Positions 267 through 35,600 of a stretch of DNA of 48,178 nt are shown piece after piece. The translations under genes were made by a program, and so were the position numbers. The stretch is from positions 1 through 48,178 of the IMG/VR virus record IMGVR_UViG_3300020186_000032; one strand, given 5' to 3'. The notes beneath the pieces were generated by a model. It worked only from the letters and a program-made list of their open reading frames with translations. It was not told where the DNA came from and ran no database searches. The stretch is from a virus. The stretch's first letter is position 1; the number at the start of each line of letters is the position of its first letter.

Positions 267-1028
267 ATGTCAAAAACTAATGTTGATGAAGAGGAAGAGA
301 ACGACATTGTTGGTATGTATGAGAGTGGTTTGACTGGCGCGGAGATCGCGCGGGAACTGGGTCGCAACTCCACGACCATCTATTCGGCGCTTAAGCGGCG
401 AGGGGTAATCATGCGCGAGCAGGGGCCTAAGGCCAGCGTGGACTGGGTAGAGGTGTTCTTGAGCTACCAGGAGTATAAGGAGGGCCACCTTGAGCTTCCC
501 GAAGTCTTAAAAGCTCATGGCATTACGCTTGCATCGTTGGAGCATCAGCGTCGCGTGCAGGGCATTGAGACTAAGGCCAACGACTTGGCTCCCCAACGCA
601 AGATGCGTGATGAGATAGCTATTGAGCTGTACAAGGAGGGGCGTAAGATTGCTCAGATCCGAGATATTACTGGGTTGTCGCTGCCGATGCTGTATGAAAA
701 GCTGAAGCAGGCCGGTGTTCCACTACGTCGCAGGGACAAGAAGCTGACTCCTGAGCGCATACTTGGACTTGAGATGATTCGCGAGCGGCTTGCCGCGCGG
801 GCCTTGCTGGCGCCTGCTGACGCTGCTGACACCGACACCGCTGACCCTTTGGTCGTTCCGGTGCGCGCCGACCTGGCCGCTGACCAGGCCGCCGACAAAG
901 AGGCTTTTATAGAGCTGGCCAGAGTGGAGGCGGCGTTGACTGGCGGAGTGGCCGTGGCATCTATTGTGGCCAACGAGACCGACCAGCCCATGTCTATGCC
1001 TGCCCAGCTGAGCCTTCCGCTCCTGTAG
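267..1028 (+). CDS. Multi-HTH DNA-binding protein with C-terminal clamp-binding-like tail
   Basis: Probable sequence-specific DNA-binding protein of 253 residues and the first rightward gene. I chose ATG 267 over the in-frame TTG at 249 because GGAG (257-260) sits six bases upstream. Three helix-turn-helix-like segments are visible: near residues 12-46 (motif TGAEIARELGRNSTTIYSAL), 63-100, and 118-152 (KIAQIRDITGLSLPMLYEKL). They resemble homeodomain-like or resolvase-type HTHs with long recognition helices. After about residue 165 the chain becomes Ala/Asp-rich and looks like a flexible linker. The last residues are PAQLSLPLL, matching the sliding-clamp-binding hexapeptide QLSLPL known from the N-terminus of the bacterial initiation regulator Hda. 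A role in early control of transcription or replication through the host beta clamp is inferred, not shown. Confidence 0.72.
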   Translation: MSKTNVDEEEENDIVGMYESGLTGAEIARELGRNSTTIYSALKRRGVIMREQGPKASVDWVEVFLSYQEYKEGHLELPEVLKAHGITLASLEHQRRVQGIETKANDLAPQRKMRDEIAIELYKEGRKIAQIRDITGLSLPMLYEKLKQAGVPLRRRDKKLTPERILGLEMIRERLAARALLAPADAADTDTADPLVVPVRADLAADQAADKEAFIELARVEAALTGGVAVASIVANETDQPMSMPAQLSLPLL

Positions 1029-1346
1029 ACAGCTGCTACCAGCTCCAAAATCTAGAGACGGACTCGGTCATTATCATTATGTATCTGTATATAGAGGTAT
1101 GTATGTTATACATTATATAGTATCGAAGTCTTATGCGTTTTTGGTTGTAGTTGTAGCCCAGGTTGGAGCCAGGTTGCGCTGGCGCCCCCCTCTCTCATGA
1201 GCGGCTAAGCTTCTTGTCATCCTCGCTTAACATAGGGACTCTACGCTGTAGGTGTTTGTCGTCTGGACAGGTGATGTAGGTTGGAGAATGGTGAGAGCGC
1301 GGTTGTTGTAGTTCAGGTCAGTTGGTAAAAGTAGGCGCCATATGAA
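1029..1346. other. Non-coding stretch, no gene seen
   Basis: No coding frame with a ribosome-binding site is visible. The first ~110 bases are AT-rich and hold a weak inverted repeat around TGTAT-GTT-ATACA. The remainder is mixed-composition sequence without a convincing hairpin or promoter. It separates the first gene from the promoter array at 1347-1400. Confidence 0.4.
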
Positions 1347-1400
1347 GTCATGAACCCCTCATGTTCCCCTCATTTACTCCTCATAATCGAAACTGATAAT
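1347..1400 (+). promoter_or_regulatory. 11-bp direct-repeat promoter, copy 1
   Basis: Four repeat units start at 1347 (GTCAT), 1358 (CTCAT), 1369 (CTCAT) and 1380 (CTCAT), each exactly 11 nt apart. A -10-like GATAAT starts at 1395, 15 nt after the start of the last unit. The next gene begins at 1472. The same geometry recurs at 2282-2335 and 3980-4033. One-helical-turn direct repeats running into the -35 region are typical of activators of the OmpR/PhoB response-regulator class; which protein binds here is unknown. Confidence 0.62.
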
Positions 1401-1471
1401 GATCTCAGAAAGAAGGGCCACGGAGGTGCGGCACCAAAGCCGTTCCAGGATTGGCCCAAACGGAGATTGAC

Positions 1472-1687
1472 ATGGCCACAACCGAAACGAAGATGTACAA
1501 GATCGCCTTGACCGCCGAGGAAGTCAAGATGGTGGAGGAGTTGATTGGTCGGACGCCCGAACAGGCGTACACGTACGACCCAGAGGCCGCCAAGCGCCAG
1601 CGCCAAGTGGCGAAGGTGAAGGCCGACGAGGTCAAGGTGGAGTTGGCTGCCTATAGGGCCGAGGCCGCCGCCCGCCGCCTCGCCTAA
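1472..1687 (+). CDS. Small charged helical protein, unknown function
   Basis: A 71-residue protein I do not recognise. ATG 1472 is preferred over the in-frame TTG at 1451 because CGGAG (1461-1465) lies at ideal distance. The 13 nt before and including its start codon, GGAGATTGACATG, are identical to those of the first gene at 257-269, so the two translation starts share an origin or a control. The sequence is charged and Ala-rich, and its second half (about residues 36-71) should be a long helix, possibly a coiled coil. No catalytic or metal-binding motif is visible. It follows the promoter array at 1347-1400 and is followed by a very stable hairpin. Confidence 0.6.
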   Translation: MATTETKMYKIALTAEEVKMVEELIGRTPEQAYTYDPEAAKRQRQVAKVKADEVKVELAAYRAEAAARRLA

Positions 1688-1717
1688 GCGGCACGCCGGC
1701 ACCGAACGCCGGCAACT

Positions 1718-1786
1718 ACAACTACATAACCTTCCCCACCTAACCGCAAACCGGGCGGTTAGGTGGGCGGAGGGTTGGGTAGTTGT
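1718..1786 (+). terminator. Long stable hairpin after the 1472 gene
   Basis: A perfect 13-bp stem (1735-1747 with 1755-1767, CCCACCTAACCGC) closes a 7-nt loop. It is extended by an outer near-perfect segment and an 8-bp stem, ACAACTAC (1718-1725) with GTAGTTGT (1779-1786). No T-run follows, so it may act as an RNA 3'-end stabiliser or a structured RNA rather than a classic intrinsic terminator. Confidence 0.5.
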
Positions 1787-1826
1787 CATCCCCAACCGAT
1801 AGGGTAGGATCAGCCAGGAGCCTAAC

Positions 1827-2057
1827 ATGGAAAAGCCAGAACTCGTCTCAGTAAGTAAGCAAGCCCTCGCGGTGGCATGGGTAGTCCTCCGCCGCGATGT
1901 CGACGCGCTCGCGTGGCGCCTCCAAGATTGCTCGGCGCAGGGCGAAGAATGCCGCGTGTGCAAAAGCACGCGCACGCTTCTCGTCCAAAGCGAGGCGGCC
2001 ATGATCGTAATTGGTCACGCCCTCGGCCACCCGGCCACGGCCTCGCCAGCCCGCTAG
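1827..2057 (+). CDS. Small Cys-containing protein, unknown function
   Basis: A 76-residue protein of unknown role. The start is supported by CCAGGAG at 1814-1820, six bases before ATG 1827. The central part reads as helices (residues 8-34) followed by a Cys-containing turn, C(x)6-C-x2-C near residues 35-45 (motif EECRVC), then a hydrophobic helix near residues 52-66. Three cysteines so close could bind a metal, but a fourth ligand is not obvious. It stands between two strong RNA structures: the hairpin at 1718-1786 and a pseudoknot-like region that begins inside its last codons. Confidence 0.55.
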   Translation: MEKPELVSVSKQALAVAWVVLRRDVDALAWRLQDCSAQGEECRVCKSTRTLLVQSEAAMIVIGHALGHPATASPAR

Positions 2058-2141
2058 TCGGCGGCCCTACTACCCCTCGGCCTTTCAGCCGCTGCCCACC
2101 CCTTGCGGGCTGGCGAGCAGGCTGGCGAGGCCGAGGGGTAG
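2042..2141 (+). ncRNA. Candidate structured RNA with interleaved stems
   Basis: Two perfect 13-bp helices are possible: CTCGCCAGCCCGC (2042-2054) with 2105-2117, and CTACCCCTCGGCC (2070-2082) with 2129-2141. The order of the strands is interleaved (a, b, a', b'), which is pseudoknot topology; alternatively the helices are mutually exclusive. GGCTGGCGAG is repeated directly at 2108-2117 and 2120-2129, so the first strand has a second, shorter partner. It could be a terminator, a switch or a nuclease-resistant RNA. Function is unknown. Confidence 0.45.
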
Positions 2142-2281
2142 CTTTCATTTCCTACATAGGGGCCAAACACCCACATAAACCGATGCGCCGAGCCCTCCCC
2201 GCTTTGCGGCTCGCGGCTCGCGGCTCCGCAAGAAAGCCCTTAGGCCCCTGTGCTCCTGGTTTTCGGTTGCGTAGAAAGCCT
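2142..2281. other. Non-coding spacer with triple GCGGCTC repeat
   Basis: No gene is visible. GCGGCTC occurs three times in tandem at 2206-2226, with GAGCC upstream able to pair with it. This spacer separates the structured region at 2042-2141 from the promoter array starting at 2282. Confidence 0.4.
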
Positions 2282-2335
2282 CTCATCAAATTATTACTTT
2301 CCCCTAATGTTACCTTAATCTGTAGGCCCTACACT
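2282..2335 (+). promoter_or_regulatory. 11-bp direct-repeat promoter, copy 2
   Basis: Repeat units start at 2282 (CTCAT), 2293 (ATTAC, degenerate), 2304 (CTAAT) and 2315 (TTAAT). A -10-like TACACT starts at 2330, again 15 nt after the start of the last unit. First unit CTCATCAAATT and last block TTAATCTGTAGG are identical to those of the copy at 3980, with the same 22-nt separation. It would drive the zinc-ribbon gene starting at 2378. Confidence 0.62.
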
Positions 2336-2377
2336 ATAGGTAAGTTTAGTTCTGGGCCTACACAGGAGGGCCACTTG

Positions 2378-2656
2378 ATGTCAACACTCTCATCTTTCTC
2401 TCTAGCTCCAGGGCCGCGCACCCAGCGCCACGTTGCGCCACATAGCCCGCACGTTATGCCGTATGAGGTCATTCATCGGCCGACGAGTGGGGGAACTTTC
2501 AGGTGTGAGATCTGCAAAATCAAGTTCGCCTTAACAGCGCTGGCTAAAGTGAGTGGCGGGCTTGTTGATCCCTCGCACACGGTATGTACCGAGTGTGAGA
2601 AAGTGGTACTAGAAGGCGATTGGTCCATCTTCAACCTTCTAGTTAGTAGGTTGTAG
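2378..2656 (+). CDS. Small zinc-ribbon-like protein
   Basis: A 92-residue protein. ATG 2378 is selected because AGGAGG (2364-2369) precedes it; the frame stays open far upstream, but that part is non-coding spacer. Two CxxC knuckles are separated by about 28 residues: CEIC near residues 46-49 and CTEC near 75-78, the arrangement expected of a four-Cys zinc ribbon. Such proteins usually bind nucleic acid or a protein partner. The first ~40 residues are Ser/Pro/His-rich and probably disordered. It sits directly behind a repeat-array promoter, so it is probably made early. Confidence 0.6.
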   Translation: MSTLSSFSLAPGPRTQRHVAPHSPHVMPYEVIHRPTSGGTFRCEICKIKFALTALAKVSGGLVDPSHTVCTECEKVVLEGDWSIFNLLVSRL

Positions 2657-2673
2657 GCCCTAAGGAGGCCAAC

Positions 2674-3036
2674 ATGCATACTGGGTTAATTCCACTCGAG
2701 AAAGACATCCTGAAGCGCATAAAGGGCCTAGCTTCGGTCACGCGCCCGGGCCAGTACGGCGAGGCGGTCGAGGTGGTCAAAGGCGAAATGCGGTGGCGCA
2801 ATGGTGAAGTGCGCGAGCAGCGCGTGCACACGAGCAAGACGCGCATGGCTAAGTACCTGAAGCTCGCTATTCGGTGGGCGGTGAACGGCGAGGGGAAGTA
2901 CTCTACGTACTATTTTATCATCGCAGCTCTGAAGAACGCGAGGATCGTGGCGCCAAAGGCCGATCAGGCGAGAGTTGATGCGCTGATCAAATGGGCACGC
3001 GGCTGGTACGAGTACAAGGTTCGGACGGCCTCATGA
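2674..3036 (+). CDS. Hypothetical basic protein
   Basis: A 120-residue, Lys/Arg-rich protein that I cannot place in a family. AGGAGG at 2662-2667 precedes ATG 2674, and the gene follows the zinc-ribbon gene after 17 nt. Predicted character is mainly alpha-helical with several aromatic residues (WAVNGEGKYSTYYF around residues 68-81). Its stop overlaps the next start (ATGA at 3033-3036), so it is translationally coupled to the coiled-coil and membrane proteins that follow. Confidence 0.55.
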   Translation: MHTGLIPLEKDILKRIKGLASVTRPGQYGEAVEVVKGEMRWRNGEVREQRVHTSKTRMAKYLKLAIRWAVNGEGKYSTYYFIIAALKNARIVAPKADQARVDALIKWARGWYEYKVRTAS

Positions 3037-3263
3037 GCATCGAACAAGACCTGACCGACAAAGAGCTCAATCGGCGCATTGAACGCATGGAGAGGCGGCT
3101 CGAGGAGCGCGAGCACAAGATCCATGCGGCCCAAGTGGTTGCGGATACAAAGCGCCAAGAGGCGCACATCAAGCGTCAGGCTCAAGCCACCGCTACGCGC
3201 CTGAAAGGTGCGAACGCGATGGCTCAATGGTTGATGGATATCAAACGAGAGGACCTGGTTTAA
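3033..3263 (+). CDS. Small coiled-coil protein
   Basis: A 76-residue, highly charged protein. The start at 3033 gives an ATGA overlap with the upstream stop and is preferred over an in-frame start at 2991. Residues about 5-60 are almost unbroken charged helix, with Glu/Arg/Lys heptad-like spacing (motif RRIERMERRLEEREHKI), suggesting a coiled coil. No catalytic motif is visible. It is coupled by a TAATG overlap to the small membrane protein that follows, so the pair may act together. Confidence 0.55.
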   Translation: MSIEQDLTDKELNRRIERMERRLEEREHKIHAAQVVADTKRQEAHIKRQAQATATRLKGANAMAQWLMDIKREDLV

Positions 3264-3436
3264 TGTCAACGATTAGTGTGTTGTTCTTTGTGGCGCTGGC
3301 GATCTTGGTGCTGGCGATCTTGGTGCTTGTGCAATTCGAGGTCTGGGAGGCTGGGGAGGCCGAAGTTGCCCGTGAACGGGCTAAGCTTGAACAGGACCGT
3401 CGAGACTGGGAGGCTACCTGGCCGAACGAGAAGTAG
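3263..3436 (+). CDS. Small single-pass membrane protein
   Basis: A 57-residue protein whose ATG (3263) overlaps the preceding stop as TAATG; the longer in-frame version from 3227 has no advantage. Residues about 5-25 are a strong transmembrane segment made almost only of Leu, Val, Ile, Ala and Phe. The tail is a charged, mostly acidic helix. A holin or spanin-like role is possible but unsupported. It ends the first transcription unit, as a terminator hairpin follows. Confidence 0.55.
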   Translation: MSTISVLFFVALAILVLAILVLVQFEVWEAGEAEVARERAKLEQDRRDWEATWPNEK

Positions 3437-3452
3437 CGGTTAGTGAGCCAAT

Positions 3453-3482
3453 CTGCCTACCACAAAGCTTCGTGGTAGGCAG
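3453..3482 (+). terminator. Terminator-like hairpin
   Basis: A perfect 11-bp stem, CTGCCTACCAC (3453-3463) with GTGGTAGGCAG (3472-3482), closes an 8-nt loop 16 nt after the membrane-protein stop. The following bases are only moderately T-rich, so it may be a weak or partial terminator. Confidence 0.6.
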
Positions 3483-3517
3483 TTGTGGTTACATTAGCTA
3501 TTGACTAGGAGGTCACA

Positions 3518-3964
3518 ATGAGCGCCTGGCCGAAGCATCTTGAGGACCCGTACGCCTGGAACGAGGCAATCTGTCCAGTAGCGGCCGATTCAGGCTATCG
3601 TGGAGGCATGCTCGAGGGCCTCTATGACCTGGGGGCGGGCTTGCGGCTGTTCAGCAAGTCGCTGATTATGACTAACGGTGTGCTAACCGAGCGCACAGCT
3701 GACAATAAGCTCAACTTTTGCGAGATCGCGCGGATCGAGTGGCAGCCGGTCGCCTATGGTTTACAGGCCGTAAAGGCTCTACAGATTATCCTGCCATGGG
3801 CCTACTACGCTCCGGCGAGCATTGAGTTTCTTACAACTCAATGGGATGGTGACACTTATGTTCACTGCATTACGATCGAGTGGAAGTCGCCGCCTGATAG
3901 CGCGTCCTCGCTCGAGTGGAAGTATGGCGTTGACATCTGGGCTTCGACAAGGCATAAGCGCTGA
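3518..3964 (+). CDS. Hypothetical protein
   Basis: A 148-residue protein I do not recognise. AGGAGG near 3508-3513 precedes ATG 3518. The sequence is aromatic-rich and looks like a compact alpha/beta fold, with alternating hydrophobic strands around residues 45-55, 66-75 and 108-124. There is no signal peptide, membrane segment or evident catalytic motif. It lies alone between a terminator-like hairpin and a repeat-array promoter. Confidence 0.6.
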   Translation: MSAWPKHLEDPYAWNEAICPVAADSGYRGGMLEGLYDLGAGLRLFSKSLIMTNGVLTERTADNKLNFCEIARIEWQPVAYGLQAVKALQIILPWAYYAPASIEFLTTQWDGDTYVHCITIEWKSPPDSASSLEWKYGVDIWASTRHKR

Positions 3965-3979
3965 GCGCGGCGATTGTTT

Positions 3980-4033
3980 CTCATCAAATTCTCATAAACC
4001 TCTCATAATCCTTTAATCTGTAGGGATCATACT
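3980..4033 (+). promoter_or_regulatory. 11-bp direct-repeat promoter, copy 3
   Basis: The clearest copy: CTCAT starts at 3980, 3991 and 4002, then TTAAT at 4013, each 11 nt apart. The -10-like CATACT starts at 4028, 15 nt after the last unit. A 5' leader of about 110 nt without a gene separates it from the start at 4150. The three full CTCAT units make this the best reference for the motif. Confidence 0.66.
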
Positions 4034-4149: not shown

Positions 4150-4620
4150 ATGCCTTATTCTCCGGAAGAAGTGGAACTGCTCGAGACCAGTCTGAGCCTG
4201 GCCGAGTCCGCGGCGTATCTGAACATCTCAGAAGGCCGGCAACGCGACCTGTTCCGCCAGGGCGCGATCTCGAACGCCCACAAGGTGGGCGCCTCGCCCG
4301 ATGGCTCGGGTGGGGAGTGGCGCACCACCGTGCGCTCGCTCGAGGAGTACATCGCGCACAAGGGTGTTCGCGCCCCGAGCGCGCGCGGCGGCACCGTTGT
4401 GAAGGTCTCTGGGCTGACCCCCCAGACGAAGGCTGCCCTGGAAGCGTGGGCCAGCCTCAACGAGTGCACCATCGGGCCGGCGTACTACCAGCAGTCTCCT
4501 GAGGCGGTGGCCCGTCAGAAGGCCAACAAGGAGGCCAAGCGCGCCGAGACCCAGGCGGCCATGCGCGCGAAGGGCTTGCGCCCCCAGGCTGGCCCCGTCG
4601 TCGAAGACGACGACGACTAG
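4150..4620 (+). CDS. Excisionase/MerR-like HTH protein with acidic tail
   Basis: A 156-residue putative DNA-binding protein. ATG 4150 follows AAAGGAGGA (4135-4143); an in-frame GTG at 4123 would place that ribosome site inside the gene. Residues about 13-72 fit a winged-helix domain of the excisionase/MerR type: a helix-turn-helix (SLAESAAYLNISEGRQRDLF), a wing, and the closing pattern VRSLEEYIAHKG. The C-terminal third is basic and Ala-rich and ends in five or more acidic residues. It lies behind the strongest repeat-array promoter and before a good terminator, so it forms its own unit. A role as an early transcription regulator is inferred. Confidence 0.6.
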   Translation: MPYSPEEVELLETSLSLAESAAYLNISEGRQRDLFRQGAISNAHKVGASPDGSGGEWRTTVRSLEEYIAHKGVRAPSARGGTVVKVSGLTPQTKAALEAWASLNECTIGPAYYQQSPEAVARQKANKEAKRAETQAAMRAKGLRPQAGPVVEDDDD

Positions 4621-4648: not shown

Positions 4649-4696
4649 GAGGCCCAGAGGCCCAGGCCAATAGTATGGTCTGGGCCTCTTCTTTTT
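4648..4696 (+). terminator. Rho-independent terminator with duplicated left arm
   Basis: AGAGGCCCAG at 4656-4665 pairs perfectly with CTGGGCCTCT at 4680-4689, followed by the T-rich run TTCTTTTT (4689-4696). A second copy of the left arm at 4648-4657 can form the same stem with a longer loop. It ends the HTH-gene unit. Confidence 0.8.
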
Positions 4697-11278: not shown

Positions 11279-13708
11279 ATGTTTGACATTATCTTCGCCG
11301 AAGCCCCAGAAGGGTTCGTTGAAGTAGGCCAGCCTGGTGGAATGCGGCTTGTTACACCTGCTCAGTTGATTGCAACAAAGGCGTGGCCTCAAGACCATGA
11401 CTTGTATTACTCACCAACCTTGCGCAGGGATGGGAGTGGCGAGAAGAGTAGTGTAATAGCTGGTCGAGTGATCTGGGCAGATGTGGACTTGCCAGACACT
11501 CAAAGCCTGAAAACGCTTGCCTATCGTAAGCCACCTAAGCCCATCATGCCACCTTCGCTTATCGTATATAGTGGGTGGGGATGGCACTATTATTGGGTGC
11601 TTGATAAGTGGCTTGATGATGTTGAGATGCTTGAGACTTTAAACAAGTTGATGGGAGACGATATAGATGCTGACCATTGCTGGAATGCCAATCGGATCCT
11701 CAGAGTTCCCGGATCAGTCAATCATAAACATGGAAGTCCTTTGGAGTGTAGAGTTATTGAGGCCTCATCTATTACATATAGCGCCTCAGAACTCTTGGCT
11801 TATAAGTCGCTCGCAAAGAAGACTAAGCACAAGGTTCGTACAGGTGAGAGCCGAGGATATCCTACAAGAAGTGAGCGCGATTTTGCCGTTGTACGAGAGC
11901 TCCTCACCGCAGGCCTTAGCCAAGATCTGGTTAGGAGTATATTTCAGTATCACGCCGTGGGAGACAGCTACCGAGACCGTGGAGAGGGTGGAGCTAAATA
12001 TTTGGAACGTACCATGGCAGCGGCTGCACCTGAGGCGGATCGTAAAGCTGTCGAGACTTCTGAGCTGGATGAGCGAGAAGACGGGTATTACATTGTTAAA
12101 GGGCGTGCCTCTCGCAGGGTCAGCACCTTTGTCCTCAATCCTACCCTACTTCTACAAGGCGAGGAGCAAGACGCAGTCCAATGTGATGTACGTGCGGGCG
12201 GGTTTGAATGGAAGAGCGTAACCTTTACACGTACCGCGTTCAATGGTCGGCCACAGATGGACAAAGAGACTCGGCTGGCATCTTGGCAATGGCTTGGGAG
12301 AGATGATGACGTCCGTATCCTACTTCCACACTTACTCGCTAAGCTTGAGTCCATCGGATTTCCTCATATCCGAGCCACCTCCGTGCTTGGTCTTCATGTA
12401 CAGAGTGGAGCTTCATGGTTTGTCGGTGACAAAAGCACCCTTGGAGTCGATGGGCCACGTGGGTCCAGTGATGCGCCTTTGGTCTATTTGGAGACCAGAC
12501 GGGAACATGCTAAGCTTGGGTTTGACGGAGGTGCTACTAGTCTCACCGAAGTCGAAGGGGCCAGTTTACATACTATTGCCAGTCTTCTGCCTAGCCTTAA
12601 TGCCCCTGCCTCAATTTGGCCAACTCTGGGCTGGTATTTCGCCACGCCTTTCAAGCCTGCTATCGAAGCATGCGGTTTCAGATTCCCAATCCTCAACATT
12701 TTCGGAACCAAAGGCTCTGGCAAAACTACTAGCATACTCCGAGTGTTTCTACCACTCCTTGGACAGCTAGAGCCTAAGACCTATGACGCTATGACTACCA
12801 AGTTTGTGATCCTATCACTGATGGGGTCAAGCAATGCGGTACCTGTTGCCTTCTCAGAGTTTAGACAGGCCACGGCAAACGCCTTCATTAGGTTCATTCT
12901 GCTGTCATACGATACGGGCCACGACCCTAGAGGCCGAGCCGATCAGACGACACAGGACTATCCCTTGAGCGCCCCATTCTCCATTGATGGCGAGGATGCG
13001 ATTGATGACCCGGCTTGTAAAGAGCGCATGATTGCGATAGACTACCATCCAGACAATGTGGCGGAGGGCTCAGACGCATGGATAGCCTACCAGAGATTAC
13101 GGACATTGACGGCTTCGTTTCAGCTGTTCGCGACTTTCTACTTACAATACTGCCTCCAGATGCTGAACTCGAAGGAGTTGGCATTAGCGCTGTCCAAAGC
13201 TCGGGAGGTCGTATTACTCGCCTTTCCACAAGGCCTGCCGGATCGGGTGCGCAACAATTTATCGGTGTGTTGGTTTGGGATATCGACATTCTGCACATGT
13301 TGGAATGTAGAGCTGCCCGACCCGAGAGTGGCATTAACTGGGGTGTTGAACAACGTGTTCTCGAATCAGATGGGGCGAGTGCTGACGGCGGCGGATGAGT
13401 TCGTAACTGACCTAGTGAACCACTTGGCAACTCATCAGGGAAGAATACGCTGGGCGCCTCAGGAGCATGAGGTGTGGTTCCAAATGACCCCAGCCTACAA
13501 TTGGTGGGTGCAGCACAAGCGGCGCTCAGGTAGTCCAGCTTTGGGCAAGGACGCCATTAGGGCCCAACTAGCTGAGGCGTCCTACTCTCTGACGCCAACC
13601 GTACGTGACTCAGTAATGATGTACGGCATTGACTTGGTTAAGGCGCAGGCTGGTGGGCTGGACCTTCCTAACCTGCTGGACATGAGAAAGATCACACAGG
13701 AGTTCTAA
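11279..13708 (+). CDS. Primase-helicase (RepB/AEP-type primase fused to an ATPase)
   Basis: An 809-residue replication protein. The N-terminal ~180 residues look like an archaeo-eukaryotic primase of the RepB type: metal-binding WADVD (Asp68, Asp70), the nucleotide-binding S-x-G-x-H pattern SGWGWHYYW (His103), and NRILRVPGSVNHKHG. The C-terminal half holds a P-loop, NIFGTKGSGKTTS near residues 473-484, with the layout of DUF927/SF3-like helicases. It would unwind the fork and lay primers for the phage polymerase. Start ATG 11279 has no strong ribosome site but follows the terminator closely. The stop overlaps the next gene (TAATG). Confidence 0.75.
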   Translation: MFDIIFAEAPEGFVEVGQPGGMRLVTPAQLIATKAWPQDHDLYYSPTLRRDGSGEKSSVIAGRVIWADVDLPDTQSLKTLAYRKPPKPIMPPSLIVYSGWGWHYYWVLDKWLDDVEMLETLNKLMGDDIDADHCWNANRILRVPGSVNHKHGSPLECRVIEASSITYSASELLAYKSLAKKTKHKVRTGESRGYPTRSERDFAVVRELLTAGLSQDLVRSIFQYHAVGDSYRDRGEGGAKYLERTMAAAAPEADRKAVETSELDEREDGYYIVKGRASRRVSTFVLNPTLLLQGEEQDAVQCDVRAGGFEWKSVTFTRTAFNGRPQMDKETRLASWQWLGRDDDVRILLPHLLAKLESIGFPHIRATSVLGLHVQSGASWFVGDKSTLGVDGPRGSSDAPLVYLETRREHAKLGFDGGATSLTEVEGASLHTIASLLPSLNAPASIWPTLGWYFATPFKPAIEACGFRFPILNIFGTKGSGKTTSILRVFLPLLGQLEPKTYDAMTTKFVILSLMGSSNAVPVAFSEFRQATANAFIRFILLSYDTGHDPRGRADQTTQDYPLSAPFSIDGEDAIDDPACKERMIAIDYHPDNVAEGSDAWIAYQRLRTLTASFQLFATFYLQYCLQMLNSKELALALSKAREVVLLAFPQGLPDRVRNNLSVCWFGISTFCTCWNVELPDPRVALTGVLNNVFSNQMGRVLTAADEFVTDLVNHLATHQGRIRWAPQEHEVWFQMTPAYNWWVQHKRRSGSPALGKDAIRAQLAEASYSLTPTVRDSVMMYGIDLVKAQAGGLDLPNLLDMRKITQEF

Positions 13709-14187
13709 TGACAATCGTTCGGATCGAGAAGGATTTCAAGTTCGAGGCGGCGCATCAGCTTCAAGGCCATCCAGGTAAGTGTCAATGGCTTCATGGCCAC
13801 AGCTATCGCGTGACCGTGTGGATCAAGGGCACGCTTAGCGAGGAAACGGGAATGCTGATGGACTACGATGAGCTGAAAGAGACCTGCCAGCCAGTGATCG
13901 ATGAGATGGATCATACGTACTTGGCTGAAGGCTCGGAGGACTTGATCTGGGGACGTGATCTGCCATTGTTGACTCTTTTGGGCATTCGCGTCTATTCTGT
14001 GGGCATGCGTACCACGGCCGAGAACATAGCCAGCTATCTGGCTCGTAAGTGGGAGGACGCTTTCCTGACCTTTGAACAGTTGCAGCTGTTTGGTGTGGTG
14101 GTCCACGAGACGGCTACCTCCTCGGCCGAGTACATTGTGGACTTGAGGCCTCTGTTGGGGCTTCGGCCCATTTACCATACGTCGTGA
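13708..14187 (+). CDS. queD: 6-carboxy-5,6,7,8-tetrahydropterin synthase
   Basis: QueD converts 7,8-dihydroneopterin triphosphate to 6-carboxytetrahydropterin, step two of 7-deazaguanine synthesis. All expected residues are present in its 159 residues: zinc ligands His16, His29, His31 (EAAH, LHGH), nucleophile Cys25, Asp68-His69 (EMDHTYL) and Glu134 (VVHET). A longer loop than in E. coli QueD lies around residues 75-100. The ATG overlaps the upstream stop as TAATG. With QueE, FolE and a DpdA-like enzyme it forms a phage DNA-modification cassette. Confidence 0.9.
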   Translation: MTIVRIEKDFKFEAAHQLQGHPGKCQWLHGHSYRVTVWIKGTLSEETGMLMDYDELKETCQPVIDEMDHTYLAEGSEDLIWGRDLPLLTLLGIRVYSVGMRTTAENIASYLARKWEDAFLTFEQLQLFGVVVHETATSSAEYIVDLRPLLGLRPIYHTS

Positions 14188-14420
14188 GCGACCCTGTTAA
14201 GGCTCCGGCCCACTATACAAAGGGTGCGATTGAGGTTAAGTGCTTCATTGTTGATCAAGGCCTGCCCTGGACCATAGGTAATGCCATTAAGTACCTATGC
14301 CGTTATCGCTGGAAAGGCGAAGCCATCCAGGACCTGGAGAAAGCCAAAGAGTACATCGACATGCAAATTCAGTTAGAGAGGGAGGCCCAACGTGGACACA
14401 GAGAAACGCTACCCCATTAG
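14184..14420 (+). CDS. DUF3310 family protein
   Basis: A 78-residue protein of the DUF3310 type, common in phage nucleotide-metabolism and replication regions; its biochemical role is not settled. The family core is complete: PAHYTKGAIEVKCFI at the start, NAIKYLCRYRWKG in the middle, and a helix DLEKAKEYIDMQI at the end. The start is GTG 14184, overlapping the queD stop by 4 nt. The C-terminus overlaps the start of queE by 29 nt. Its insertion between queD and queE suggests only co-expression. Confidence 0.75.
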   Translation: MSDPVKAPAHYTKGAIEVKCFIVDQGLPWTIGNAIKYLCRYRWKGEAIQDLEKAKEYIDMQIQLEREAQRGHRETLPH

Positions 14421-15132
14421 TGAAGTTTTCGGTCCAACTATGCAAGGGGAGGGGCCGCTGATTGGCACTAAGACCTACTTCGTGCGGTTTGCCGGCTGTG
14501 ATTATGACTGCTCTTGGTGCGACACCAAGTACGCTGTGTTGCCCAAGTATCCTGGTTGGTCGCGCACTATGATGACTCTTCAAGAGATCGTAGTTAAGCT
14601 TGGGGCATTAGGCATCAAGTCTGATGAGTGGATTACCTTGTCAGGCGGCAACCCAGCCCTGTTCGTTGACATGGAGTTTATGAGGCTTGGTGAAACCTAC
14701 AAGCTCGCCATGGAGACTCAGGGCTCTAAGACCATGCCAGATGGTGTAGCTGGTGCGTTGGACTGTCTCATCATTTCGCCCAAGCCGCCATCAAGTGGCA
14801 TGGATATGCGCTATGACTCTGATCCCGTGCAGGCGCTGCTTAGCGAGCGAGACCTGGAGGAGATAGACAAGATTACTGCCTTAAAGTTCGTGGTGTTTGA
14901 CGAGGTCGATCTGGAGTGGGTCATTGAGACGTCGGACGATCTGGATGAGCCCTCGGTTAAGCACTACTTGTCGATTGGTACGCCCTTGAATGCTGGTGTG
15001 GGCGTGCGTGATATTATCTTGGACGATCTGGCCAGGTGGGTTGAGGTGCTAACGCATGACCCTCGGCTGGCCAACTGGACCATCTTGCCACAACTTCACA
15101 CTTTGCTGTGGGGCCAGAAGAGGGGAGTATAA
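14392..15132 (+). CDS. queE: 7-carboxy-7-deazaguanine synthase (radical SAM)
   Basis: QueE rearranges 6-carboxytetrahydropterin to 7-carboxy-7-deazaguanine (CDG) using a 4Fe-4S cluster and S-adenosylmethionine. The family start QGEGPLIG is followed by the cluster motif C-x3-C-x2-C at Cys36, Cys40, Cys43 (GCDYDCSWCDT), and a glycine-rich SAM-binding segment LSGGNPAL near residue 84. Length (246) is normal. The start is GTG 14392, eight bases after GGAGG. The stop overlaps the folE ATG (TAATG). Confidence 0.88.
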   Translation: MDTEKRYPISEVFGPTMQGEGPLIGTKTYFVRFAGCDYDCSWCDTKYAVLPKYPGWSRTMMTLQEIVVKLGALGIKSDEWITLSGGNPALFVDMEFMRLGETYKLAMETQGSKTMPDGVAGALDCLIISPKPPSSGMDMRYDSDPVQALLSERDLEEIDKITALKFVVFDEVDLEWVIETSDDLDEPSVKHYLSIGTPLNAGVGVRDIILDDLARWVEVLTHDPRLANWTILPQLHTLLWGQKRGV

Positions 15133-15701
15133 TGCCTAAACATAAGAGGTATGACCCGACCAACGTTGGTCAGTTCGAGGCCATTCTAGATGATGTCCTG
15201 CGCGAGGTCAAGTGGGATGATTCTAGTCGGCGCACGTCCGAGCGGTTCTTAGACTATCTGAGTGAGTTCCTGCCAACCGTGCGGCCGCCTATGACCGTCT
15301 TTGACACACGTGATAATCAACTGGTGGTGGCTTCGCCGATTCAGTTCTCCAGTATGTGCCAACACCATCTGCTTCCCTTCCTGGGACATGCACATGTGGG
15401 CTACGTCTCGGATGGTAAGATCATTGGCTTGTCGAAGATTCCTCGTCTGGTTGAGTGGGTGGCACGACGCCCCTCCACCCAGGAGGCCATGACTACCATG
15501 ATTGTGGATGAGCTGAAAACGCTGCTTAAGCCTAAGGGTGTGCACGTGGTCATCGAGGCCGTACACACCTGTGCCTGTGCCCGCGGCATTCGCAAGGTGG
15601 GTATGTCTATGAAGACTAGCCTGCCGACTGGTGTGTTCCGCGACAATGCGGTTACGCGTCAGGAGTTTCTGTCCTTGATCGATCTGCAGGGAGCGAAATA
15701 G
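15132..15701 (+). CDS. folE: GTP cyclohydrolase I
   Basis: FolE turns GTP into 7,8-dihydroneopterin triphosphate, the entry step of deazaguanine synthesis. Of 189 residues, the signature region is intact: CQHHLLPFLGHAHVGY (Cys76, His79 as zinc ligands), IGLSKIPRLVEWVARRPSTQE, and a Cys pair near 147-149 (HTCACARG) supplying the last zinc ligand. ATG 15132 is taken, with GGGGAG just upstream. With queD and queE it gives the phage its own supply of CDG, independent of host genes up to that step. Confidence 0.92.
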   Translation: MPKHKRYDPTNVGQFEAILDDVLREVKWDDSSRRTSERFLDYLSEFLPTVRPPMTVFDTRDNQLVVASPIQFSSMCQHHLLPFLGHAHVGYVSDGKIIGLSKIPRLVEWVARRPSTQEAMTTMIVDELKTLLKPKGVHVVIEAVHTCACARGIRKVGMSMKTSLPTGVFRDNAVTRQEFLSLIDLQGAK

Positions 15702-16426: not shown

Positions 16427-16691
16427 TCTAACTGACCAGGAGACTGGCAAGTCGATTACGGTGTGTGTGGACCGCCATACTCGGTCTGCACGTATCTTGG
16501 CCTGGGATAGGTCGCTGATTGAGCCCATGATGCAAATGGTTGCCGCTCTGGGCGTAGAAGAGATCTCCGTGGAGTCGAGGGAGCTGCAAGATATGGGCTT
16601 TGTCGATCTCCGCTTTATTACAGTAAGGAGGCTAAATGTCAAACCAGGCGAAAGCACCACACGCGCTCTGCTCGATATGCCCCCTACTTAA
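16416..16691 (+). CDS. Small hypothetical protein
   Basis: A 91-residue alpha/beta protein I do not recognise. It starts 11 nt inside the dpdA-like gene and runs 56 nt into the polymerase gene, so it is expressed with them. The start has only a weak ribosome site. Strands alternate with one central helix (EPMMQMVAALG), a typical small ferredoxin-like pattern, but no metal ligands are visible. Position suggests a possible link to DNA modification or synthesis; that is inference from context only. Confidence 0.5.
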   Translation: MHISLTDQETGKSITVCVDRHTRSARILAWDRSLIEPMMQMVAALGVEEISVESRELQDMGFVDLRFITVRRLNVKPGESTTRALLDMPPT

Positions 16692-19044
16692 GGCTCAAGG
16701 CCCCGTGCTGGGCCATGGACCTTCCAACCCTAAGCTGGTGATCGTTGGAGAAGCACCCGGAGGCCAGGAAGTGCGGTCTGGGGTTCCCTTCATCGGTCCG
16801 AGCGGGCAGCTCCTGGACGCTGCGCTATCTGCCGTAGGCGTGGAACCTAGTGCAACCTATAGAACCAACGTAGTGTTGTGCCGGCCACCTAGCAACAGAC
16901 CTCCCTCTGATCAAGAGATAGCCTGCTGCAGGCCCCGCCTTCTCGTGGAGTTGCGTGAGCGTCCAGGAGCTGTTGTCACGATGGGAGCTACAGCGGCTAA
17001 GGCCCTAGGTTCAACTAAGGGCATACTGGCCATACGTGGCGCCTGGGCTAATGCTCCTGGCTTGGATGGTAGGGCGTATTTGCCTACCCTACATCCAGCC
17101 TTTGTGCTGCGCCAGCCGGCGGCCCTGGTGGACATGATTAACGATCTCGAGAAGGCCCTAGTCGAACGGGCTACGCCTGTGCCACCGTTCAAGCCCACGA
17201 TCATTGACACTGTTTGGCAGATGGAGCTGGCGCCTGGAGCTCAATTAGTCTATGATGTAGAGACTGACGCGCAAGGGGATCTGCTGTCAATTAATCTAGC
17301 CTGGGGACCAAACATCTCTGACACTTGTGTATTGGTGGGCGACGCCATTAAGGCTCTTCAAAAGCTTGATCGGCTTCATCGGTCTGGTGTGCAGTACATT
17401 GCGCACAATGGAAAGTTTGATGTAGAGGCCTTACATAGGGCAGGTATCGAGGCGCGCTTGGACTTTGATACCATGTTGGCCCACTACGCGCTAGATGAGC
17501 GCAAAGGAGGCAGCAATGTTGAAGGGCAGTTTCAACGAGGAGTTCACGGACTTAAAGTCCTCGCCAGTCAGTACTTCGACTCAGGTAACTACGATGCTGA
17601 GGCCGATCAATTGGCCAAAGCGCGACCAAGGGGCAAAGCTGGCGAGGGAATGCCAAGCTACGATATGGCGCGCGTACCACTTAACCTTCTCGCTACCTAC
17701 GGAACTCTCGATGCTCATTACACGTGGCGACTGAAGCAGCTCTTTGAGGTTCGTCTACGCGAAGTGGGCATCTACGACAACCTGTTTCAGGCTTTGTTGA
17801 TGCCCGCATCGGAGGCGTTCACCATCGTTGAGATACGTGGCATGTACATTGATCGTCCAGCGCTCAACGCGCTTAAAGCACGCTGGGAGTTGGAGATTGA
17901 AGACATCCACGACGATCTGTGCGTACTTGGAGGGGAGTACTTTAATCCACGTGCGCCGGCTCAGGTAGCCCGTATCCTGTATGATAAGCTTAAGCTGCCT
18001 ACGCCGCCTAAGCGCGCTCAGATTGGCTCATCGTTTAAGGGCGGAGGGGAGCGCAGTACCGATAAAACGGCACTTACGCTGATTCAAACGCTGCATCCAA
18101 TCGTAAAGAAGATGTTGCTGTACCGGCGAGTGCAGAAGTTGTTGTCGGCGTATGTCGAGGCTATCTATTCACATCTCAGTGCTGACTCGAGGATACGTAC
18201 CAACAACAAGGTGCATGGTACTGAGGTGGGTCGTATCCAGTCCGAGGATCCGTCATTACATAATCTACCACGCGCAGACGATAAGGAGGAGGGCCAGTAT
18301 GGCAAGGCCATTCGTGATCTGTTTGCCGCAACGCCCGGCTATCTTTTCGGAGCTGGAGATCTATCCCAAGCTGAGCTACGAGTGGCGGCGTTTCTATCTC
18401 GAGATCTTGTGCTTATGCAGGCATTCAAGGACGGTGGCGATCCACACAGCAATGTGGCAAAGCGCGTCTTTGGAGAGGGCTCCGGCGAGGAAGAGCGCTA
18501 CGTGGCTAAGGCAATTAACTTTGGTGTGCTCTACGGTGGCAAAAAGAAAACTCTTGTGGCTCGTGTCATGGATCTGCGTGGTTTTCGCCCCTCCATGGTG
18601 GCTAATCCGCGTGAGGTAGACGACATTGTCCAGAACTACATGGACACCATGACGCGCCTATTCGAGTGGCGCGAAGAGCAGTTCCAGCGAGCGCGCAAGG
18701 ACGGGTACGTGGAGACGTTGATGGGCCGCCGTCGGCGCTTTATGTTCATCAATGACGAGAACGAGGATGAGGTGCGTAAGGCGTGCGTACATGCGCAGGT
18801 AGCCGGCCTGGCTTCAGACATCAACACACTTGCCTTTGCTCGACTAACTAAGGAAGGGTATCGTACACTGCTCACCGTTCATGACTCGATCCTGTTCGAG
18901 GCGCCCATCGCCGACATTAAGCCAGTTTCGCAATATGTTGTGCAGTGTATGATGGATGAGTGGAACAAGTGGATTACAGACGTGCCTGGGGCCGCTGATG
19001 TAAAGGTGGGAGAGCGGTGGGGGAGCCTTGCCAAGCTCAAGTAG
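16636..19044 (+). CDS. Uracil-DNA glycosylase/DNA polymerase I fusion
   Basis: An 802-residue family A replicative polymerase with an N-terminal uracil-DNA-glycosylase domain. Residues 1-170 match family 4 UDG: Fe-S cysteines Cys12, Cys15, Cys82 and Cys98, motif GEAPGGQE with GVPFIGPSG, and the HPA motif (PTLHPAFVLR). The 3'-5' exonuclease follows (VYDVETD near 215, AHNGKFD near 255, TLDAHYTW near 355). Polymerase motifs are A, GDLSQAELRVA near 573; B, KAINFGVLYGG near 625; and C, TVHDSILFE near 748. A UDG-like domain on a phage polymerase is also known from SPO1. It may remove uracil or read modified bases ahead of synthesis. AAGGAGG precedes ATG 16636. Confidence 0.85.
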   Translation: MSNQAKAPHALCSICPLLKAQGPVLGHGPSNPKLVIVGEAPGGQEVRSGVPFIGPSGQLLDAALSAVGVEPSATYRTNVVLCRPPSNRPPSDQEIACCRPRLLVELRERPGAVVTMGATAAKALGSTKGILAIRGAWANAPGLDGRAYLPTLHPAFVLRQPAALVDMINDLEKALVERATPVPPFKPTIIDTVWQMELAPGAQLVYDVETDAQGDLLSINLAWGPNISDTCVLVGDAIKALQKLDRLHRSGVQYIAHNGKFDVEALHRAGIEARLDFDTMLAHYALDERKGGSNVEGQFQRGVHGLKVLASQYFDSGNYDAEADQLAKARPRGKAGEGMPSYDMARVPLNLLATYGTLDAHYTWRLKQLFEVRLREVGIYDNLFQALLMPASEAFTIVEIRGMYIDRPALNALKARWELEIEDIHDDLCVLGGEYFNPRAPAQVARILYDKLKLPTPPKRAQIGSSFKGGGERSTDKTALTLIQTLHPIVKKMLLYRRVQKLLSAYVEAIYSHLSADSRIRTNNKVHGTEVGRIQSEDPSLHNLPRADDKEEGQYGKAIRDLFAATPGYLFGAGDLSQAELRVAAFLSRDLVLMQAFKDGGDPHSNVAKRVFGEGSGEEERYVAKAINFGVLYGGKKKTLVARVMDLRGFRPSMVANPREVDDIVQNYMDTMTRLFEWREEQFQRARKDGYVETLMGRRRRFMFINDENEDEVRKACVHAQVAGLASDINTLAFARLTKEGYRTLLTVHDSILFEAPIADIKPVSQYVVQCMMDEWNKWITDVPGAADVKVGERWGSLAKLK

Positions 19045-32609: not shown

Positions 32610-35600
32610 TTAGCGAAGCCCCTTAGGCAAGAAGCCTGTGCGCTGTGGCTGAAAACCAATCGGGCCGGGGGGAGTTGGAAGCGCCGGTGGCGTGGCTCCA
32701 GGAGGCACGACAGGGGACTCGGTTGTAGGCTGAGGTGGAAGGGCCGAAGTAGGCTCAGGCGTTGGATTCGAACCAGGCGTAGTTCCACCGACTTGGTCTG
32801 GTGGCGTCTGGCCCCACCAGTAAGTGTAATCGTTGTCGTTGTAGAAGTAGGCATAGTAGGGAAGTGATTGCCTTAGAGCGCGACGAGCATCGAAGTAGGC
32901 TTTAAGCCTAGCCCACTCATCAACATGCTCACGGCGCCAAACCGTACGATCGGCTGCCGACATGTCGTAGTAGGCGCTGGACAAAGCACTGAGCTCTGGG
33001 CTGGCTGCGGCATCGTATTGCGTCTTTTGCTGCTGCGCTTGCGTCCACCAATCTGGATGGGCCGCAACTGCTTCGCGCTGGGTTTTGGTGAAGAAGCCTG
33101 GGACGCTGCTATCACCACCACGGCCGCCTGATTGCTGTGGCCCAGTGAACTTATCTGGATCGGCAACTGGACCATTGACTTCGCCTTGCGTAGGATCATT
33201 GTTGCCGTACCACTCTTTGTAGTCATCGTTTCGATAGAAGTAGCCATAGTAGGGTAAACCGTGTGCGGCTTGGCGTCTAGTGTTAATGTATTCAACTAGC
33301 TGCTTCCACTTGTCACTATTCTGCTTACGCCAAAGTTCCTGCTCGCCGTAATCAAGACCAAAGTACTTGGTCATGACCTTCTCTAGTATAGGATCACGAC
33401 TCTCAGAGTATAGAGCTCGTTCTTCTTGAGCCTTATCCCACCAATCAGGATGAGACTGGCGAGCCTCTGTTAACTCTGGATTGATTAGGCTCTGTTCGTG
33501 CGCTTTTAAGTACTTCAGCGCTGCACGATACTGACTTTCAGTATATTGCAGCAAACTACGAGCATCGGTACTTAAGATTGCAGCCAGGATAGGATCATCA
33601 AACACTTCCTGGTTGTACACACTCTGATTGTAATGTTCCCAGAAGTTGGCACTGGCGGAGTTGAGTGTGCCGTAGTACTTCTCCATCAATGGCGTCCACT
33701 CAGGCCTAGAGCCTGAGCCGCTATCAAACGCCTCTTTTTGCTGATCGTACTTCCAGAAGTCTCGATCGAGCTGTTTGTAAACCTCGACCACTTCCTGAGT
33801 GGGCTTAGCATCGGCGTATTTGTTTACATCTACGCCAGATCCAATAGGCCGCGCCATTGGACCACGACCACGTAGCGCATCCACACTCTGGTGTTGTGGC
33901 GGCCTACTTACTGTAGGATCTATCTGACCAATATTGTCCGCCGCCAAGCGCAACTCTCCAGATGATAGTCTCTTAATGTGGTCTGTAAAATCAACTCCAT
34001 CTTTTAGGTGCAAGCGATTGCGAAGCTCGCGCCGTGCATCGGGCAGAAGGGTGTAATAGTAGTTGACTACACTCTGCTGAAGTAGCTCATCAGGAGTCTT
34101 GGTCGTATCATACATACCTGGGGCCATCATGTCAAGCGGCCCACCAGATGATCGATCACCATTGCCTTGCATGTACTTTTGACGAGTACCGTAGTCCTCG
34201 GTCAGCTCCGGTCGATACTCGCCAATACCGCCTAAGAAGTTGGTAGCCGGCACAGGACCATAATCGCCAGAGCCCTGGACAATCTGATCTCGAATCTCAA
34301 ATGGCAACCCGTTCTTGCGAGCGTCTTGAACAAACTCTGCAGCCCTCTTAGAGGCATCCTCTGGAGACATACCTGCCGCAACATCCTCTTCAATGTGCTT
34401 CTTGGTTGCCTCATAAAGCGCAGCCTTAAACTCCTCAGAGGTAGGATCCTGTAGGGCGGCGGCTAAGTCGTAACCAGGCTGCAGGCGCCGATCGTTTAGA
34501 ATCTTGGCAAGCTCGGCAGGTGTACGGTAGCGGTTTCGATAGCGATCATATAGATCGGCCGATACTGGATAGCCCCACTGCTTTGACAGTTCGGGAACAC
34601 TAGTCAGAAACTCCTGGTAGGCCGAGCTGTACGAGTCCCAGTCTATCTGACCATCACCGTCGGCAAACTCACTAGGCTTAGGCTCCTGGTCCTCTAGGTG
34701 CTTCAACACCCGACCGCGCTCTCCTGTGCCTGGCGCCGCAAAGGTGGTAGTATCCCTTTGGCCAGGTTCACCATTGGCTAGTACCGCAGCAATCTCCCCA
34801 GCACGCTTACCCTGGAGGTCTCCGTATTCGTCATCGAAGGGCGTCAGGCCCTTAAGCTGTGGGTCGTACTTCTGGTTGATCTTTAGGACCGCGTCGCTAC
34901 GCTTGCGCTCCTGCTCGGGGTCAAACAGTCGATAATAAGTCGACATGTATGGATACACCGAGTTCTGATCAAACTCACCAGACCTAGTCTGCTCATTAGG
35001 CAGAGCTGCCGTCTGTCGAATGCGTTGTTCGCCTGGCGAGGCATACTTGAGTGAGAAAGGCACAACAGTACGATAGGCCCTAAGTCGATCTGTTTGCGAT
35101 TGCACAAACTGCTGCGCCTGCTGGTACAAGGGCGACTCGGGATCGTACTGAGCCAGCTGCGCCTCTTCAGCAGTAATCTCGCCTTCAGCGGCCATCTCGG
35201 CCAAGCGCCGATTGGTGTTGTAGTCTAGCAGGTCTCGATTGGCCTCACCAGGCGCCATGCCTACAGCGGCCTGCAACTTATCCAAAGCCTCACCAAGGCC
35301 AGGCAACTGCTGTAATGGCCCAAACATGTCGCCTTCTAGGCCAGGCTCTCGAAGGCCTACAGCCTCTTGCGCCTTACTGATCCAAGGCCAAGGTCGAATG
35401 CCTGTCAGAGACTCGCCACGTACCATTCCTTGAGCAAACTGCTCAAAGGCGTTTTGCGGCTGAGATTGACCAATAGGTTCAAACGGCTGACGGAACTGCG
35501 CACCTGGACCATAGGTCTGGGACGGGTTCCAAGCATAGTACCCAGGGCGTAAGAAGCCCAAGTGTTGAAGCACATCCTGGCCAGGCAATGGAGTAGTATC

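Follow-up and report, generated by a model that had tools for sequence, protein, structure and literature searches.

What starts transcription where a viral genome places tandem direct repeats, and no -35 hexamer, ahead of a -10 hexamer? The question is raised by IMG/VR record IMGVR_UViG_3300020186_000032, a virus record of 48,178 bp (the window, below, is this whole stretch of DNA), in which three arrays of 11-nt direct repeats stand upstream of genes. We consider it likely that these arrays are activator-dependent phage promoters that use a host response regulator of the OmpR/PhoB family. The arrays, and a weaker fourth one, are composed as follows.

Site 1, 1347..1400, plus strand: GTCAT at 1347, CTCAT at 1358, 1369 and 1380 (TCAT cores at 1348, 1359, 1370 and 1381); -10 hexamer GATAAT at 1395.
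Site 2, 2282..2335, plus strand: CTCAT at 2282, ATTAC at 2293 (degenerate), CTAAT at 2304, TTAAT at 2315 (TTAATCT); -10 hexamer TACACT at 2330.
Site 3, 3980..4033, plus strand: CTCAT at 3980, 3991 and 4002, TTAAT at 4013 (TTAATCT); -10 hexamer CATACT at 4028.
Weak fourth array, 1194..1247, plus strand: CTCAT at 1194, CTAAG at 1205, GTCAT at 1216, TTAAC at 1227; -10-like hexamer TACGCT at 1242.

Each main site repeats the core TCAT or TAAT four times with an 11-nt period, apart from one degenerate unit in site 2. An earlier, sequence-only reading had placed four-unit arrays at 1347, 2282 and 3980, and all of its coordinates check; at all three sites, the distance from the first base of the last unit to the -10-like hexamer is indeed exactly 15 nt, or 14 nt when counted from the last core. 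Its description of the units as CTCAT needs correction: unit 1 of site 1 is GTCAT, unit 2 of site 2 is badly degenerate, and sites 2 and 3 both end in a TTAATCT unit, which also occurs in promoters of another phage. Likewise, its count of three promoters covers the strong arrays and omits the weaker one at 1194-1247. The sequences CTCATCAAATT and TTAATCTGTAGG, separated by the same 22-nt gap, are present in both site 2 and site 3 as claimed, and the exact sequence common to the two sites has no match in viral contigs.

Sites 2 and 3 have 23 identical bases in common, as might be expected if the arrays reflected chance or common duplication of one repeat-rich spacer. We give this explanation next to no credence, as it is contradicted by tests on shuffled and random sequences and by the recurrence of the arrays in phages without DNA similarity. 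With up to three mismatches allowed, the four-unit pattern has two matches in the window, against 0.01 expected. Of the lags from 6 to 20, only lag 11 gives YTMAT triples in the window (three triples, against a mean of 0.01 and a maximum of 1 in 200 shuffles); triples are restricted to lag 11 also in three other viral contigs described below (G001, G407 and G408). A matrix built from other phages only ranks the window sites first, with scores of 40.9, 31.6 and 30.6, and the array at 1194 follows as the fourth-best hit (19.6; 17.4 and 19.6 in matrices trained on other phages). Across 100 random sequences as long as the window, no matrix score exceeds the maximum of 16.6, and the best background score outside the sites is 5.8.

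The spacing was determined blind to the -10 hexamer: maximal chains of at least three units were collected first in the window, G001, G407 and G408, and the -10 was then located and counted at a match of 5/6 or better. It lies at offset 15 in 18 of the 22 arrays and in none at offsets 6-14 or 16-19, with four arrays having one at offset 20. Taken alone, sites 2 and 3 have weak -10 hexamers (4/6), but the spacing is confirmed by these 18 of 22 arrays, which come from four phages. A -35 hexamer at a spacing of 16-18 has a mean best match of 2.63/6, which is background (2.40/6 at random places). The arrays share with activator-dependent promoters of the OmpR/PhoB family both the direct repeats of ~10-11-nt period and the fixed distance to a -10 without a -35. 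The Escherichia coli phoA promoter, whose Pho box we verified in E. coli records to lie ahead of phoA, likewise has 11-nt direct repeats, no -35, and 14 nt from core to -10 (TCAC to TATAGT). The proposal that an activator site replaces the -35 element is supported by this equal distance and by the absence of a -35 above background.

Repeats of this type could also be replication iterons or repressor operators. Iteron-like TCAT-N7 arrays do occur in replisome-organiser-like genes of other phages in the scan of viral contigs described below. However, those arrays have no fixed -10, whereas the present ones have a -10 at one offset and stand upstream of genes with a ribosome-binding site, scattered over as many as 13 places of a single genome, and we regard this alternative to activator sites as very improbable.

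A motif scan in other phages, which had been suggested as a check, shows that the architecture recurs in at least three of them. When viral contigs were first scanned for four TCAT cores, the output was mostly microsatellites and arrays inside replisome-organiser-like genes but included G001; a second scan later gave G407. The 45.8-kb contig G001 (L069, IMGVR_UViG_3300002461_000220) has four promoters of like build at 43614, 44066, 44875 and 45413, each followed by a ribosome-binding site and a small gene; an extra array lies upstream at 43556. The final unit is YTAAT in all four of these promoters, as in window sites 2 and 3. G407 (L268, IMGVR_UViG_3300044712_002507, 29.3 kb) has 13 promoters, every one with a perfect TATAAT at offset 15, and the small contig G420 has one site, ahead of its Cas4-like exonuclease gene. 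G408 (L114), with two opposed arrays and TAGGCT at offset 15, is a possible member only. We rejected L126 (coding), L010 (a long tandem array) and the other viral four-TCAT matches (mostly microsatellites and iteron-like arrays without a fixed -10). The TCAT-N7 arrays of L051, L057, L072 and L105 lie inside replisome-organiser-like genes and are probably replication iterons.

G407 is a true relative of the window, with nine genes in common: those for an SNF2-type helicase, a Cas4-like exonuclease, an AAA protein, an 809-amino acid primase-like protein, QueD, QueE, FolE, a 240-amino acid protein of unknown family and DNA polymerase A. Its promoters stand at places other than those of the window. 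Conserved flanks with a lost 11-nt periodicity had been named as the observation that would speak against the arrays, and G407 presents the opposite: the architecture is kept, the flanks and positions are not. Among ten further relatives collected via the primase-like protein, a site is found only in G420, and a unit-agnostic 11-nt search in the relatives returned G420 alone. G411 (56 kb) and G412 (54 kb) have no sites though they are related by gene content, which fits host-dependent usage; a patchy trait is as expected among relatives if usage follows the host. Neither a search for close relatives by polA or the 156-amino acid protein listed below nor a comparison with annotated phages yielded one. 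An 11-kb contig (L276, IMGVR_UViG_3300020192_000146) is near-identical to the window core, with a 100% identical primase-like protein, and begins downstream of the sites.

In bacteria, regulator genes are found in association with this layout. Searching bacterial genomes with the pattern YTMAT-N6 (x4)-N10-TANNNT gave, after removal of tandem arrays, at least 101 loci. Among the matches listed, to which the counts in this paragraph refer, an OmpR/PhoB-type response-regulator gene is present in 39/101 loci, compared with 0/18 tandem-repeat control loci. The usual order is regulator, kinase-sized gap, site and target, and 30 of the 32 regulators within 1.9 kb share the strand of the site. The OmpR/PhoB-class geometry that had been read from the DNA alone is thus matched by bacterial sites that adjoin regulator genes of this family. 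Nearly all of the neighboring regulators have an (S/T)N(V/I)(V/I)DVY-type (SNVVDVYI-like) recognition helix, unlike E. coli PhoB. The products behind the bacterial sites include TolC-like outer-membrane proteins (19/79), SulP transporters (7), DUF4342 proteins (5) and Usp proteins (4). In the phage sites, the positions on which the search placed no constraint match the bacterial matrix more closely than shuffled ones do (combined p ~2e-7).

In the Chloroflexi genome G003, as judged by eye, one site stands immediately behind a regulator-kinase pair and ahead of a glycosyltransferase-like gene, and a second is followed by a gene reading as malto-oligosyltrehalose synthase. The nearest models to the G003 regulator, encoded at L256:7622-8293 on the minus strand, are MtrA, PhoB and heavy-metal regulators (CopR/SilR), all below cut-off, and the nearest structures are PrrA, PhoP and MtrA. 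The regulators beside bacterial sites resemble CusR/PmrA/MtrA more than PhoB. The regulator-kinase pair of G003 and its CTCAT-type sites at trehalose-related-looking genes (L256:6084-8380 and L258:6643-6696) form a candidate trehalose or osmotic regulon. One contig, L246 (66% GC), is filed under Candidatus Kuenenia; its GC content is far from that of the genus, probably owing to a binning error.

Could the regulator be PhoB of the host, acting on Pho boxes and letting the phage respond to phosphate starvation? Cyanophages provide a precedent, as host PhoB controls cyanophage genes according to the passage of PMC10976474 that cites Zeng and Chisholm (2012), and the distance from TCAT core to -10 is identical to that of E. 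coli phoA. On our reading, a host two-component regulator would act on genes of the window through direct repeats, as in the cyanophages; however, the cyanophage Pho boxes are PyTTAAPyPyT/A, and we find neither phosphate genes nor a phosphate link. The units of E. coli phoA, a member of the phosphate regulon, are CTGTCAT, whereas the present unit is YTMAT, which lacks this CTG, tolerates TAAT and is mostly preceded by C or T, not G. The sites are therefore not of the CTGTCAT type, and control of phosphate genes is not seen. No phosphate gene was seen among the scanned window proteins, and none is among the commonest families behind the bacterial sites listed, where the targets are TolC-like, SulP, DUF4342 and Usp proteins and, in G003, genes reading as trehalose-related, not pst/pho. 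The neighboring regulators carry SNVVDVYI-type helices and not the segment of E. coli PhoB, DRTVDVHIRRLRK. On these grounds, we hold the phosphate regulator of the sequence-only reading to be quite improbable.

Two other known systems come closer in part. The nearest known sequence is the PmrA/BasR box CTTAAT-N5-CCTAAG with its 11-nt head-to-tail half-sites (PMC3973317), which shares YTAAT-type half-sites, the 11-nt period and a regulator of a related subgroup, but has two half-sites, not four, and is enterobacterial and not found in phages. CtrA sites of the form TTAA-N7-TTAA lie in promoter regions of unrelated Alphaproteobacteria phages and are bound in gel-shift assays (PMC9437464). Like the present arrays, they are clustered operators of 11-nt period in phage promoter regions that are read by a host OmpR-family regulator (in our case, predicted). 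In contrast, the arrays described here have cores of TCAT or TAAT rather than TTAA-N7-TTAA, in three or four YTMAT units at one fixed distance from a -10 without a -35, and no alphaproteobacterial locus appears in the titles among the genome-scan matches listed. The phage sites are predicted to work like OmpR/PhoB-family operators and, judged by the tested features, are neither Pho boxes nor CtrA sites.

The sequence-only reading had allowed for either a host regulator or an activator of the phage itself. The following genes lie next to the sites.

71-amino acid open reading frame, 1472..1687, plus strand: first gene downstream of site 1, preceded by a ribosome-binding site; no known family.
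92-amino acid open reading frame, 2378..2656, plus strand: first gene downstream of site 2; weak PHROG match (families of unknown function).
156-amino acid open reading frame, 4150..4620, plus strand: first gene downstream of site 3; weak HTH_17 (excisionase-type) match, PF12728 E 0.00048, below cut-off.
Helix-turn-helix protein (HTH_23/sigma region 4-like), 267..1028, plus strand: upstream of all sites; the only other candidate regulator near them.

Terminator-like hairpins are located at 3453-3482, ahead of site 3, and at 4656-4689, behind its gene, and would make short separate transcription units.

The main rival explanation is that a phage-encoded protein, for example of the HTH_17 or HTH_23 type, binds the 11-nt direct repeats and runs a timed phage regulon. 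Lambda CII is a phage activator that binds direct repeats over the -35, and activators of this kind thus exist; helix-turn-helix proteins are encoded near the sites (267-1028 and 4150-4620), and a G407 protein behind one of its sites starts, as judged by eye, with a helix-turn-helix-like segment. Nevertheless, the window, G001, G407 and G408 encode no OmpR-type DNA-binding domain above cut-off, and the window, G001 and G407 have no DNA-binding protein in common, the shared proteins being only helicase, polymerase and nucleotide-metabolism enzymes (the records may be fragments). Because of these two results, a host regulator is the simplest reading. The layout is also found beside bacterial response-regulator genes, and relatives with equal core genes have no sites. 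We therefore consider a phage activator unlikely, and of the two sources proposed, the host is favored, whereas an OmpR-type activator of the phage finds no candidate. A Trans_reg_C fragment at 45034-45135 was rejected as a regulator (E 0.004, below cut-off, contains a stop).

The unit nearest the gene ends just upstream of the -10, and a host response regulator bound there as activator would occupy the spot where sigma would contact the absent -35 hexamer and recruit RNA polymerase to the -10. Most likely, the regulator would be host-encoded and a member of the CusR/PmrA/MtrA-like branch of the family rather than PhoB. Some early small genes in the window and G001, or much of the gene set in G407, would then be tied to a host two-component signal, and a host stress sensor probably switches these phage genes on.

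Several observations weigh against a host regulator of this family. The -10 hexamers of window sites 2 and 3 are poor. Most listed bacterial counterparts have YTAAT units; CTCAT or TTCAT occurs in only a few of those next to regulator genes. The bacterial search was built on this very layout, so that its loci, at least 101, show association and not specificity. The combined p value given above for the phage sites treats the sites of one phage as independent, which they are not. An unrecognized phage activator of another fold would leave an identical DNA pattern. Strict CTCAT-type sites turned up in a single genome among the 400 of a Chloroflexota-wide scan. Protein similarities do not agree on one host, with the terminase nearest actinophages (25%), the exonuclease nearest Bacillus phages (~30%) and the primase-like protein matched in 1 of 151 Chloroflexota genomes, partially and with a stop; the host search returned no phage DNA match.

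To our knowledge, only two cases of phages reading a host response regulator are known, cyanophage PhoB and alphaproteobacterial CtrA. If our reading is true, the present arrays are a third case, of a stricter design in which three or four units stand at an invariable spacing and the -35 is missing, and among phages with little or no sequence in common. The search pattern finds such promoters from DNA alone, and their patchy spread among relatives makes host dependence testable. At least 13 promoters of G407 carry the arrays, among them the ones ahead of its replication and 7-deazaguanine genes. A more far-reaching idea, which we put forward tentatively and hold to be doubtful, is that a class of phages gave up the sigma-70 -35 element at a whole promoter set, would need one host two-component regulator and would infect only under an envelope, metal or osmotic stress signal of the host.

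Three further features of these genomes deserve mention. At 13708-15701, the window encodes QueD (PTPS), a QueE-like radical SAM protein and FolE, which suggests 7-deazaguanine modification of the phage DNA; G407 has a QueC-like gene behind one array promoter. The family A DNA polymerase of the window (16636-19044) has an N-terminal uracil-DNA-glycosylase-like domain. On the minus strand, a single open reading frame of 3825 amino acids (32610-44087) takes up about a quarter of the record.

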